From NCBI RefSeq assembly GCF_014930455.1, contig NZ_JAAIYO010000003.1, positions 496,001 to 560,000 on the forward strand: a DNA stretch of 64,000 nucleotides, written 5' to 3'. The notes beneath the pieces were generated by a model, which did no database searches, had not been told where the DNA came from, and saw only the letters and a list, made by a program, of their open reading frames with translations. Positions 3,356 to 7,563 of this stretch are shown piece after piece (position 1 is the stretch's first letter; each line of letters opens with the position of its first letter). The DNA is from Corallococcus soli (GTDB taxonomy: Bacteria; Myxococcota; Myxococcia; Myxococcales; Myxococcaceae). Made by a program: the position numbers and the translations under genes.

Positions 3356-4395
3356 TGGCGGCCATCGTCCTGGAGGGACTGGTCAAGGCGTACGGCGGGA
3401 CGCCCGTCGTGCGGGGCCTGAGCCTGGAGGTGGGGCAGGGCGAGCTGGTGTCGCTGCTGGGTCCCTCCGGTTGCGGGAAGACGACGACGCTTCGGATGCT
3501 CGCCGGTCTGGAGCATCCGGACTCGGGCACCATCCGCCTGGGCGATGACGTGGTGGCCGGCCCTGGGGTGCGCGTGCCTCCGGAGCGGCGCGGCCTGGGC
3601 ATGGTGTTCCAGAGCTACGCCGTCTGGCCGCATCGCAGCGTGGAGGCGAACGTCGCGTATCCGCTGGTGCTCCGGAAGGTGCCCCGGCACGAGGTGGCTT
3701 CCCGGGTCCGGGAGGCCCTGCGGTGGGTGCGGCTGGAGGCACTCGCGGCGCGGATGCCGCATGAGCTGTCGGGCGGACAGCTTCAACGCGTGGCGCTCGC
3801 GCGGGCGTTGGTGGCGGACCCCCGGGTGTTGCTGCTGGACGAGCCCCTGTCGAACCTGGACGCGGCGCTGCGCGAGGAGCTGCGCGCGGAGATCGCCGCG
3901 CTGCGCGCCCGCCTGGGCACGACGCTGGTGTTCGTCACGCATGATCAGGGCGAGGCGCTGGCGCTGTCGGACCGCATCGCCGTGATGAACCGGGGCGTCA
4001 TCGAACAGGTGGACACCCCGGAGCGGCTCTACCGCGACCCGGCGACCCCGTTCGTCGCGGGCTTCGTCGGCGGCGCGAACGTGCTGCGGGGCGAGGCCCG
4101 GGCGGGCACGTTCCACTGCGCGGGGGCGCAGCTTGCATTCGAGCTGCCGGCGGAGCTGCGCGGGCGCTCGGGGCCAGGGACGCTGGTGGTGCGGCCGGAG
4201 GAGCTGGAGTTGGGTGCGGCAGGAACGCCGCTGGTCCTCTCCGCGCGCCTGTTCCTGGGACACGCGGCGGAGTACCGCTTCCCCGTGGGGGATGCGTTCC
4301 TGCGCGTCATCGGGCCGGCGCTGGAGGGCGTGCGGGCCGGGCAGACGTTGAACGTGCGCCTGCGCAAAGCCACGGTGTTCGACGGCGTCGCTTGA
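3355..4395 (+). CDS. ABC transporter ATP-binding protein (ferric/sulfate/spermidine group)
   Basis: This 346-aa ATPase energises the importer. Walker A is GPSGCGKT (residues 36-43), the Q-loop lies in MVFQSYAVWPH, the signature is LSGGQ (138-142), Walker B is LLLDEP (159-164) and the switch His is in VFVTHDQGEAL. After about residue 235 a C-terminal TOBE-like region follows, as in FbpC, PotA and CysA. It is the last gene of the operon. The next gene converges on it with only three bases between stops. Confidence 0.9.
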   Translation: MAAIVLEGLVKAYGGTPVVRGLSLEVGQGELVSLLGPSGCGKTTTLRMLAGLEHPDSGTIRLGDDVVAGPGVRVPPERRGLGMVFQSYAVWPHRSVEANVAYPLVLRKVPRHEVASRVREALRWVRLEALAARMPHELSGGQLQRVALARALVADPRVLLLDEPLSNLDAALREELRAEIAALRARLGTTLVFVTHDQGEALALSDRIAVMNRGVIEQVDTPERLYRDPATPFVAGFVGGANVLRGEARAGTFHCAGAQLAFELPAELRGRSGPGTLVVRPEELELGAAGTPLVLSARLFLGHAAEYRFPVGDAFLRVIGPALEGVRAGQTLNVRLRKATVFDGVA

Positions 4396-4398
4396 GGC

Positions 4399-5010
4399 TC
4401 AGTACAGCGTCGTCTTCAGCCGTGCCGGCAGCTCCCGGTCGTATTCGTCTCCGTCGAAGGGGTCCTGGCTGATGGCGGCGAGCATCGCCCCGTTGCTGGG
4501 AAGCGCCGTGCGCGGGACGTGCCTTGCCGGGTTCCAGAGCTCGGAGCGGATCAGCGACCGGCTGCACTGGAAGAAGACCGACTCCACGGCGATGTGGAGC
4601 ACCGAGCGGGGCTGCTTCCCCTCGAAGGTGAACCGCTCCAGCATCGCCGGTTCAATGACGATGCTCGCCCGGCCGTTGACGCGCAGGGTCTCGTTGACGC
4701 CGGGGACCAGGAAGATCAGCGCGACCCTGGGGTCGGTCAGGATGTTCCGCAGCGAGTCGGCGCGGTTGTTGCCGCGGCGGTCGGGCAGCAGCAGCGTGTG
4801 CGCGTCCTCGATGACGATGAAGCCCGCCGGGTCACCCCGGGGGGAGACATCCAGCCCCTCCGGCCCGGAGGTGGCGAGCACCGCGAAGGGTGAGGCTTCG
4901 ATGAAGGGCCGATAAGCCGGATGAATGTGGTCCACCACCTTGAGGACCGAGGGCTTCGTGGGGAAGCCGTACAGCCGTTCGAGCGCCTCGACATCCGTCA
5001 CGGTCTTCAT
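4399..5010 (-). CDS. PPOX-type FMN flavoprotein, MSMEG_1061-like
   Basis: This 203-aa protein has the split-barrel pyridoxamine-5'-phosphate oxidase-like fold. Recognisable blocks are PFAVLATSGPEGLDVSPRGD, LLLPDRRGNNRADSLRNILTDPRVALIFLVPG and TLRVNGRASI, which fit FMN-binding proteins of the MSMEG_1061 group. Members are thought to be flavin-dependent reductases, but the substrate here is unknown. A strong ribosome site (GGGAGGAG, about 7 nt before the ATG) supports the start at 5010. The gene is divergent from the ECF41 module and shares its 118-bp control region, which suggests a redox-related partner. Confidence 0.8.
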   Translation of the reverse strand: MKTVTDVEALERLYGFPTKPSVLKVVDHIHPAYRPFIEASPFAVLATSGPEGLDVSPRGDPAGFIVIEDAHTLLLPDRRGNNRADSLRNILTDPRVALIFLVPGVNETLRVNGRASIVIEPAMLERFTFEGKQPRSVLHIAVESVFFQCSRSLIRSELWNPARHVPRTALPSNGAMLAAISQDPFDGDEYDRELPARLKTTLY

Positions 5011-5056
5011 CCGGGTGCTCCTCCCGAGGGGGACAAAATCACCATCGGAATGACCA

Positions 5057-5083
5057 TGTCACAGCCATCCCCCGTGATTCGTC
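5057..5083 (+). promoter_or_regulatory. ECF41 sigma factor target promoter
   Basis: TGTCACA at 5057-5063 and CGTC at 5080-5083 are separated by 16 bases. This matches the promoter consensus I recall for ECF41 sigma factors (TGTCACA, 16-nt spacer, CGTC). It lies 45 bp upstream of the AhpD-like gene, whose downstream neighbour encodes an ECF41 sigma factor, so the circuit is probably autoregulated. The match is seen; activity is inferred. Confidence 0.85.
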
Positions 5084-5128
5084 CTGGGGGTGGACAGGCA
5101 CTCTTCCTGTCCGGAAATGGAGCCGCAC

Positions 5129-5590
5129 ATGAAGGCCAGGATGAACCCGTTCGCCGCCGCGCCCGCGCTCATGAAGGAGATGCTCGACTTCTCCGGGAAG
5201 GTCCAGGGCAGCGGGCTGGAGTCGAACCTGTTGGAGTTGGTGAAGATCCGCGCCTCGCAGATCAACGGCTGCGCCTTCTGCATCCACATGCACACCCGCG
5301 ACGCCCGCGCGCATGGGGAGACCGAGGAGCGCATCTTCCTGCTGAACGCCTGGCGCGAGTCGCCCCTGTACACGGACCGTGAGCGGGCGGCCCTGGCCTG
5401 GACGGAGGCCCTGACGCTCGTCTCCCAGACGCACGCGCCGGATGCGGACTACACTGCGATGCGGGCGCATTTCAGCGAGGAGGAGAGCGTGAAGCTGACC
5501 CTGATGATCGGGGTGATCAACACCTGGAACCGGATCTCCGTCGGCTTCCAGTCCATCCATCCGGTGACCTCGCGCAGTGAAGCTGCCTGA
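5129..5590 (+). CDS. AhpD/carboxymuconolactone decarboxylase-family protein
   Basis: This 153-aa protein carries the AhpD core: LLELVKIRASQINGCAFC with CxxC (Cys48, Cys51) and His55 in IHMHTRDARAHG. This redox disulfide and proton-relay arrangement is used in alkylhydroperoxidases. Members linked to ECF41 sigma factors form the C class of the so-called COE proteins (carboxymuconolactone decarboxylase, oxidoreductase, epimerase). ATG 5129 was chosen because GGAG sits 6 nt upstream; in-frame ATGs at 5117 and 5090 are less well placed. It overlaps the sigma gene by 14 bases, so the two are co-transcribed, apparently from the ECF41 promoter just upstream. Confidence 0.88.
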   Translation: MKARMNPFAAAPALMKEMLDFSGKVQGSGLESNLLELVKIRASQINGCAFCIHMHTRDARAHGETEERIFLLNAWRESPLYTDRERAALAWTEALTLVSQTHAPDADYTAMRAHFSEEESVKLTLMIGVINTWNRISVGFQSIHPVTSRSEAA

Positions 5591-6455
5591 CGCGACCCCC
5601 GCGGACGCCTTCGACCCGCTCCGCCCCCGCCTGCTCCGCATCGCCTACCGGATGCTGGGCATCGTCGCGGAGGCGGAGGACGTGGTGCAGGAGGCGTATC
5701 TGCGCTGGCACCAGACGGACCGCGCCGCCGTGCGGGACGCCGAGGCCGTGCTCGTCCGCACGGTGACGCGCCTGTGCCTCGACGTGCTGAAGTCCGCCCG
5801 CGTCCAGCGCGAGCAGTACGTGGGGACCTGGCTTCCAGAGCCCATCGTCGAAACCGTGGAGGGCGACGACTTGACGCTGACCCTGATGATGGCCCTGGAG
5901 CGCCTGTCTCCCCTGGAGCGGGCCGCGTTCCTCCTGCATGACGTCTTCGGCATGGACTTCGACGAGGTGGCGAAGGCCATTGAGCGCGACCCCGCGGCCT
6001 GCCGCCAGCTCGCCAGCCGGGCGCGGACCCACGTGCGCGAGGCCCGCCCTCGCTTCCCCGTCTCCGAAGGTCAGGGGCGTGAGCTGGCTTCGGCGTTCTT
6101 CACCGCGTCGCGCAGCGGGGACGTGAACGCGCTCCAGGCGCTGCTCGCGAAGGATGTCGTCACGTATTCCGATGGTGGAGGCAAGACGAAGGCCGCGCTC
6201 AATCCCATCTATGGGGCGGAGAAGACCTTGCGTCTCTTCGACGGGCTGTTCCAGCGCTCGGGGTTGCGGTCGTCCAAGCTCGTTCACGAGGGTGCCATCG
6301 ACGGGTTGCCGGCGTTCGTCACCCTCGAAGCGGATGGCCTCTTGCAGACCACGGCGTTCGCCATCGAAGAGGGGCGCATCATCGCCATCTACGTCACGCG
6401 CAACCCGGACAAGCTGCACACCATCCGCCGGGCGGTGGGCGAGGACGTCACCTGA
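5577..6455 (+). CDS. ECF41-family RNA polymerase sigma factor (SigJ-like)
   Basis: The 292-aa protein has sigma region 2 (RLLRIAYRMLGIVAEAEDVVQEAYLRW, residues 19-44), sigma region 4 (LERLSPLERAAFLLHDVFGMDFDEVA, 108-132) and a SnoaL/NTF2-like C-terminal domain (from about 170). All three diagnostic ECF41 motifs are present: WLPEP (85-89) in the linker, DGGGK (199-203) and NPDKL (276-280). In this family the C-terminal domain replaces an anti-sigma factor and tunes activity internally. The start is GTG, inside the end of the AhpD gene. The likely target is the promoter at 5057-5083, so this is a compact self-regulating unit. Confidence 0.93.
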   Translation: MKLPDATPADAFDPLRPRLLRIAYRMLGIVAEAEDVVQEAYLRWHQTDRAAVRDAEAVLVRTVTRLCLDVLKSARVQREQYVGTWLPEPIVETVEGDDLTLTLMMALERLSPLERAAFLLHDVFGMDFDEVAKAIERDPAACRQLASRARTHVREARPRFPVSEGQGRELASAFFTASRSGDVNALQALLAKDVVTYSDGGGKTKAALNPIYGAEKTLRLFDGLFQRSGLRSSKLVHEGAIDGLPAFVTLEADGLLQTTAFAIEEGRIIAIYVTRNPDKLHTIRRAVGEDVT

Positions 6456-6588
6456 CGGAACCTAGCAGCCCCTCCGCGATGGTCCCGAGCGCACGCAGGT
6501 GAGCGCGCCGCGCTCGCGCTGGAGCCTCTGGCGCGCGGGCCGTTCGGGAAGATCGTGGTGGAGTCCCACGGAGGGGTAGGGTGGGGGC

Positions 6589-7563
6589 ATGTCGCGCCCC
6601 CCTGTTCCCCCGCGTCGTTTCCACTCCGAGCCGTTGGTCCTGGTGCTGCGTCACCTGGAGGCCGCGCTGGCGTCAGGGCCGGTGTCCCCGGTGTCCATCG
6701 AGGTGCCGGATCCGGACCTGGGCCTTGGGAAGTATCCGGGGGAGCGCGTCGGGCCGGAGGGCGGGCTCGTCCATCGGCCGCTTCGGAGCTGGTGCGACCT
6801 GGCGGAGGGATTGTCCTGCCGCCTGCGCACGCCGCGCGCGGTGGATGACACGCACGTCCTGCTCACGTTCGAGCCGCTGGGCGCGGAGGCCCCGTGGCAT
6901 GCGGGCGGTGGGGAGCGCTCGGAGGCGCCGCAGGAGCGCTATGGCGCGGAGTCCGACTTCGCGCGGGTGCGGAAGTTCGAGGACGCGGGCTTCCTGGTGC
7001 CGTGGCTACAAGCGGTGGAGCGGCTGCGTCTGCCTTCCGGCGCACGTGTGCTGGACCTGGGCGTCAACCGGGGGGATGAGCTGGCCGCGTTCGAGTCCGT
7101 CGGAGGCGTCCGCTTCGTGGGCGTGGACCACAGCGCGAGCGCAATCGACGCGGCCCGCAGGGCGTTCCCGGATGCGCGGCATGCGTTCGTGCAGGCGGAC
7201 CTGAACGCGCTCCCGGCGGCGCTCGGACGCTTCGACGCGGTGGTGTCCGTGGGCACGCTGCAAAGCCCCGGCGTGGATGACAGGGCCCTCCTGCGCAAGC
7301 TCGTGCAGGAGCACCTGGAGCCCCGGGCCTCACTGGTGCTGGGCTTCCCCAACTCCCGCTTCCGGGACGGCGAGGTCGTCTACGGCGCGCGCGTGCGCAA
7401 CCTGCGCGAGCCGGACCTGTCGCTGCTGGTGAAGGACCTGTCCTTCTACCGCCGCTACCTGCACCAGCACGGCTTCCGCACGTTCCTGGGCGGCAAGTAC
7501 GACCTGCTGCTCACGGCGGTGCGGGGACAGGCGTCGGACGAAGAAGCGCCGGATCAGGACTGA
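6589..7563 (+). CDS. Class I SAM-dependent methyltransferase, unknown substrate
   Basis: This 324-aa protein has a Rossmann methyltransferase domain in its second half: motif I VLDLGVNRGDELAAF (about 153-167), acidic motif II in FVGVDHSASAIDAARRAFPDA, and motif IV FDAVVSVGTLQ (about 214-224). The first 110 residues are an unassigned N-terminal region. The substrate cannot be told. It lies 133 bp after the ECF41 operon and converges with the YdeI remnant, whose stop it overlaps by ten bases. No clear operon partner. Confidence 0.75.
   Translation: MSRPPVPPRRFHSEPLVLVLRHLEAALASGPVSPVSIEVPDPDLGLGKYPGERVGPEGGLVHRPLRSWCDLAEGLSCRLRTPRAVDDTHVLLTFEPLGAEAPWHAGGGERSEAPQERYGAESDFARVRKFEDAGFLVPWLQAVERLRLPSGARVLDLGVNRGDELAAFESVGGVRFVGVDHSASAIDAARRAFPDARHAFVQADLNALPAALGRFDAVVSVGTLQSPGVDDRALLRKLVQEHLEPRASLVLGFPNSRFRDGEVVYGARVRNLREPDLSLLVKDLSFYRRYLHQHGFRTFLGGKYDLLLTAVRGQASDEEAPDQD

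Follow-up and report, generated by a model that had tools for sequence, protein, structure and literature searches.

Does the stretch of Corallococcus soli DNA analysed here, a window of 64,000 nt, hold a self-contained ECF41 circuit, with a sigma factor and its CMD partner read from one promoter, and do the divergent PPOX-type flavoprotein gene and a redox signal belong to that circuit? We consider the locus very probably to be an ECF41 signalling module that has its own promoter, one CMD-sigma transcript and a sigma factor held in check by its own extension, with the PPOX gene separate from it.

Layout and gene products of the locus

The window comes from a genome of 9.44 Mb in 68 contigs. 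The gene for an FMN-dependent PPOX-type flavoprotein (203 aa; 4399–5010, minus strand) starts at 5010, and the gap between it and the ATG of the CMD gene at 5129 is 118 nt (5011–5128), in agreement with the 118-bp divergent region described in the original prediction. The predicted ECF41 promoter within this gap (5057–5083, plus strand) is an exact string, with TGTCACA as -35 (5057–5063), a 16-nt spacer and CGTC as -10 (5080–5083); 45 nt (5084–5128) separate CGTC from the ATG, so both the letters and the placement 45 bp upstream of the gene pair hold. The gene for the CMD/AhpD-core protein (153 aa; 5129–5590, plus strand; stop codon 5588–5590) is followed by that for the SigJ-type ECF41 sigma factor (292 aa; 5577–6455, plus strand), whose GTG start at 5577 makes the two genes overlap by 14 nt. 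An ABC transporter and a solute-binding protein are encoded upstream of PPOX and a methyltransferase downstream of the sigma gene; no anti-sigma gene was found among the flanking genes put to Pfam (PPOX and methyltransferase).

The sigma factor scores 385.5 bits against the SigJ model NF007214 (cut-off 271), falls just short of the cut-off for TIGR02957 (SigX4; 312.8 vs 323.25) and contains Pfam domains PF04542 and PF08281. Its domain order is sigma-2, WLPEP linker, sigma-4 and a SnoaL-like C-terminal extension (about residue 160 to 292) carrying DGGGK and NPDKL, although the SnoaL_2 (PF12680) match in this extension is weak (22.8 vs a Pfam cut-off of 27; E = 0.00014). The best solved relative is Mycobacterium tuberculosis SigJ (PDB 5xe7; E = 2.9e-45, residues 10–280). 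All three motifs put forward as ECF41 hallmarks are in the sigma frame: in a hand-picked alignment of 20 sequences (the window protein plus 19 relatives, G007, with its gene broken across contigs, being excluded), WLPEP (linker; 5829–5843) and NPDKL (6402–6416) are present in every protein and DGGGK (6171–6185) in 18, with DGGGR in the other two. The WLPEP linker is given as a feature of ECF41 factors by Wecke et al. (PMC3426412); DGGGK and NPDKL, names that come from the original prediction, have no occurrence in the available text of that paper.

The partner protein matches PF02627 (78.6 bits, cut-off 23) and TIGR00778 (AhpD core; 64.1, cut-off 27.8), and resembles PDB 2gmy (Atu0492) over its full length (residues 1–153; E = 1.1e-49). 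It falls far below the cut-off of TIGR00777, the model for AhpD proper (19.8 vs 191.95), so the AhpD/CMD partner originally named is a CMD protein with an AhpD core domain, AhpD-like rather than AhpD itself. Its CxxC is CAFC, encoded at 5270–5281.

By analogy with studied ECF41 systems, we infer promoter use, autoregulation and inhibition by the extension as follows. RNA polymerase carrying the ECF41 factor would read TGTCACA-N16-CGTC and make a single transcript, CMD first and sigma second, with its start predicted at a G shortly 3′ of CGTC (about 5086–5092). The 14-nt overlap, the presence of a promoter only before CMD and the match to the commonest known arrangement (>COE> >ECF>) argue for one autoregulated transcript, in line with the autoregulation from a single promoter that had been proposed; the overlap would also couple translation of the two genes. 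The SnoaL-like extension, rather than a separate anti-sigma factor, would restrain the sigma factor via the WLPEP linker region; inhibition of ECF41-type factors by such an extension through contact with the linker is described in PMC8999054. A signal, probably a small molecule, would alter the conformation of the sigma factor and release it, and the released factor would increase the amounts of both itself and the CxxC-type CMD enzyme, whose gene is predicted to come first in the operon and to be its output. PPOX would be a neighbour transcribed from a promoter other than this one and retained on other grounds.

The promoter motif: background and conservation

The bare string is unremarkable in 64 kb, because 15 of 100 window shuffles contain at least one TGTCACA-N14–18-CGTC; the window has one match on its two strands, against a shuffle mean of 0.19. 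In the whole genome, the exact N16 motif has two matches and the reversed-pattern control one, while N15–18 gives five against three in the control. The genome scan that had been suggested for the bipartite motif recovers the match at the operon, but with two N16 matches against one in the control the string alone is not distinctive.

These counts, both the shuffles and the genome-wide N16 comparison, leave some room for the motif being a chance string, with the operon read from an ordinary promoter. Position and conservation tell strongly against this: the ECF41 promoter is found at the ECF41-CMD operon in all 16 sampled genomes of the genus, and a match on the right strand of the 118-nt gap would be expected by chance on the order of 1 in 100,000 (our own arithmetic, from the control rate of 1 in about 18.9 million strand-bases). 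In addition, a scan of 4300–6700 returned no sigma-70 site. We regard a chance string as barely credible. Position and conservation of the promoter exceed chance, and the exact promoter match of the original prediction stands as a bipartite motif kept at the operon throughout the 16 genomes; like the genes themselves, these features are observed directly.

Genus-wide, there are 79 exact N15–17 matches and 25 for the control pattern. From a reading of their coordinates, 20 of the 79 are at ECF41-CMD operons or at a CMD copy, one of these 20 preceding a CMD copy without a sigma gene. The remaining 59, away from ECF41-CMD loci, exceed the control total of 25, so that either further targets exist or the control underestimates the background; at none of the five of these sites that were inspected did a gene follow in the direction of the motif. 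Several of the 59 off-operon strings recur between species.

The other exact matches in the genome of the window (contigs C13, N16; C11, N17; C1, N18) were considered as further targets and rejected. The C13 match faces a convergent thioredoxin gene, running into its 3′ end, and a rough ORF call found no plainly served gene start at the C11 and C1 matches. The C11 and C13 strings are absent among the 79 genus matches.

Among 110 loci encoding ECF41 relatives, not all independent because several are repeats (L093 is the window, L013 is apparently L098/G002, and L057 shares both its motifs with L114), 41 have an exact N15–18 motif on the coding strand no more than 900 nt upstream, compared with one for the reversed control. 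The spacer is N16 at 30 of these sites, N17 at 10 and N18 at one. Most of the 69 loci with no exact motif in this interval and strand encode distant actinobacterial factors; orphan ECF41 cases are also reported by Wecke et al. (PMC3426412). The motif is present in Archangium, Myxococcus vastator and alphaproteobacteria such as Microvirga and Roseomonas.

An alignment of 25 promoter rows covers the genus, Archangium, Myxococcus vastator and two other genera of the family; two rows, the second CMD copies L103b and L105b, lack a promoter. All rows with a promoter keep CATGTCACA, and all of these but L109 keep TCGTCCTGGGG. A TCGTC block is kept alongside CATGTCACA, and outside the genus little else is conserved upstream. 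Tandem CMD genes precede the sigma factor at four loci, with an N17 promoter at each CMD gene in L100 and L101 and at the first only in L103 and L105.

The divergent PPOX gene and the proposed redox signal

The PPOX protein belongs with TIGR04025 (MSMEG_1061 family; 262.1 bits, cut-off 170), and its gene adjoins the ECF41 operon, in divergent orientation, in 13 of the 16 genus genomes. In the other three (G002, G005 and G015) PPOX is missing at the operon and a 57–59% identical PPOX is found on another contig. The PPOX tree agrees with the trees of the flanking genes. A response of PPOX to the same sigma factor, raised in the original prediction, found no backing in the 12 PPOX/CMD gaps compared (G007 left out): none contains a PPOX-facing ECF41 motif, the best candidates having 3–4 mismatches of 11. 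On sequence grounds, control of PPOX by the ECF41 factor is not indicated.

PPOX might nevertheless be part of the circuit if the ECF41 polymerase reads both ways, or if ECF41 binding shuts PPOX off, its promoter having to overlap the ECF41 -35 in so short a gap; in the shut-off version the two enzymes would be made in turn. The divergent position kept in 13 genomes fits such a role, and on the PPOX strand the -35 reads TGTGACA, in which GTGACA fits TTGACA at five of six positions, with a TATAAT-like hexamer (4–5 of 6) 16–17 nt on in several relatives; Pyridox_oxidase is also among the ECF41-linked oxidoreductases of Wecke et al. (PMC3426412). However, no PPOX-facing ECF41 motif is found in any of the 12 gaps, the best -10 in the window matches at only three of six positions, the sigma-70 scan of 4300–6700 is empty, and the three genomes lacking PPOX at the operon retain the ECF41 promoter. 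Outside the genus, no PPOX relatives were found beside the fetched loci (window PPOX as query, E up to 1e-8, flanks of about 3 kb or less). The PPOX-less loci keep the same -35 letters because ECF41 needs them. We consider participation of PPOX in the circuit unlikely. A -35 shared with PPOX on the other strand (TGTGACA) was rejected as a candidate in its own right, given the 3/6 match of the window -10, and survives only within this alternative. With PPOX read separately, as we prefer, a functional tie by another route is possible because linkage is kept in 13 of 16 genomes.

In five of the 12 gaps (L099, L101, L102, L104 and L107), an inverted repeat with perfect arms of 7–10 bp abuts the -35 on the side of the PPOX start (e.g. 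ATGGGCATTT/AAATGCCCAT, TGGTCATTT/AAATGACCA and TGGCCATT/AATGGCCA). The letters vary between species while pairing is maintained, and at most 4 of 2000 shuffles gave an equally good repeat; the window's own gap has no inverted repeat of at least 5 bp. Could these be operators, or leader hairpins?

The redox signal that had been predicted is not borne out. In the window sigma factor and its 19 relatives cysteines occur only at positions 67 and 142, and the C-terminal extension is free of cysteine in all 20 proteins; redox sensing through extension cysteines was rejected on this basis. The redox idea rests on the partner enzymes, and in the published account of Wecke et al. (PMC3426412) the CMD partner had no effect on promoter activation or signalling.

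A second ECF41 operon and comparison with known modules

The same genome carries a second ECF41-CMD operon on contig C2 (L131:6591–8050), with the promoter TGTCACA-N17-CGTC. The description of the window's circuit as self-contained holds in that it has its own promoter and CMD-sigma pair, but must be qualified by this second operon, which makes cross-talk conceivable. The two sigma factors are 78% identical, with 92% identity in sigma-2, 88% in the linker, 87% in sigma-4 and 63% in the remaining C-terminal part; a C-terminal domain that has diverged while the DNA-binding parts stayed alike suggests that the two respond to different signals.

In the tree, the C2 sigma factor falls in the genus's other clade, beside G006 (97/85). 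Likeness of the C2 DNA to two loci of that clade is limited to about 1.46 kb, a segment that takes in the promoter, the CMD and sigma genes and the opening codons of a broken PPOX; about 3.8 kb from the operon there is an integrase-core fragment. From its sequence, the C2 operon may be a cassette that arrived by horizontal transfer or by transposition. Two flanking genes and PPOX give trees that divide the genus identically (100/100 each), so the two operon types are most simply vertical orthologues of the two clades, and only the C2 copy would be out of place relative to the clades. An idea drawn from synteny, that window-type and other-type operons displaced each other at one locus while PPOX moved, was rejected.

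In all rows compared, the spacer tracks the sigma clade, N16 with the window type and N17 with the other, a link that may reflect a single change, since types and clades follow the species tree. N17 is also found outside the group, in L018 (Nitrospirillum) and L052 (a Myxococcales MAG). A similar operon with an N17 promoter is present in another genus of the family (G030, contig C23, L148:7861–9195), where the sigma gene matches in two pieces in different frames. Contig C478 of G015 (L177:4386–5053) has an N16 promoter and a CMD copy with only a C-terminal sigma remnant; this copy is a naturally occurring output unit that has lost its sigma factor.

Whether the two factors share promoters, either one driving both the N16 and the N17 operon, bears directly on the idea of separate circuits. 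Identities of 92% in sigma-2 and 87% in sigma-4 speak for sharing, as does the spacer of 16 ± 1 allowed according to Wecke et al. (PMC3426412); against it, spacer length follows the sigma clade in every row, a weak argument given the few evolutionary changes at most that this represents. We put sharing at slightly under an even chance. A much bolder reading would have two insulated ECF41 circuits, a native N16 and an acquired N17, with near-identical DNA-binding halves and different sensory domains, separated by one spacer base and by changes in the linker region (Q77/Q80 in the window factor, R77/E80 in the C2 factor). This seems to us rather improbable; if true, a whole sensor-promoter-enzyme cassette could be added to a genome without cross-wiring. 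In either case, the coexisting N16 and N17 operons provide a natural test of how close autoregulated sigma factors avoid cross-talk.

For the window's operon we retain the reading of a single autoregulated ECF41 module, and it belongs to a known kind, since gene order, promoter and predicted one-operon autoregulation equal those of Wecke et al. 2012 (PMC3426412). In Bacillus licheniformis and Rhodobacter sphaeroides, those authors mapped the ECF41 promoter and showed that it responds to ECF41. They also count 107 cases in which CMD precedes sigma in the same direction, the promoter lying ahead of the COE gene in 97 of them (Table 4), and they detected the COE-sigma operon as the sole target. 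Searches of open-licence papers brought up no experimental ECF41 study in any myxobacterium, and the window contributes a clear-cut myxobacterial example whose conservation is strong and whose promoter is compact.

Among individual proteins, M. tuberculosis SigJ (PDB 5xe7) shares the NF007214 model with the window sigma factor and resembles it along its full length (residues 10–280), and Atu0492 (PDB 2gmy), the full-length match to the window CMD, was deposited as a hypothetical protein and offers no function to transfer. The modules of R. sphaeroides (RSP_0606 - ecf41) and B. licheniformis (ydfG - ecf41) likewise have a C-terminal extension, a CxxC CMD partner and a TGTCACA -35 (PMC3426412), and R. 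sphaeroides further resembles the window in its CGTC -10 and in a CMD-sigma pair with overlapping genes. The window's module, known here from sequence, differs from both in its organism, its divergent PPOX gene and the second ECF41-CMD operon in the same genome. In its own layout the operon is a textbook ECF41 circuit, of a kind already described in 2012.
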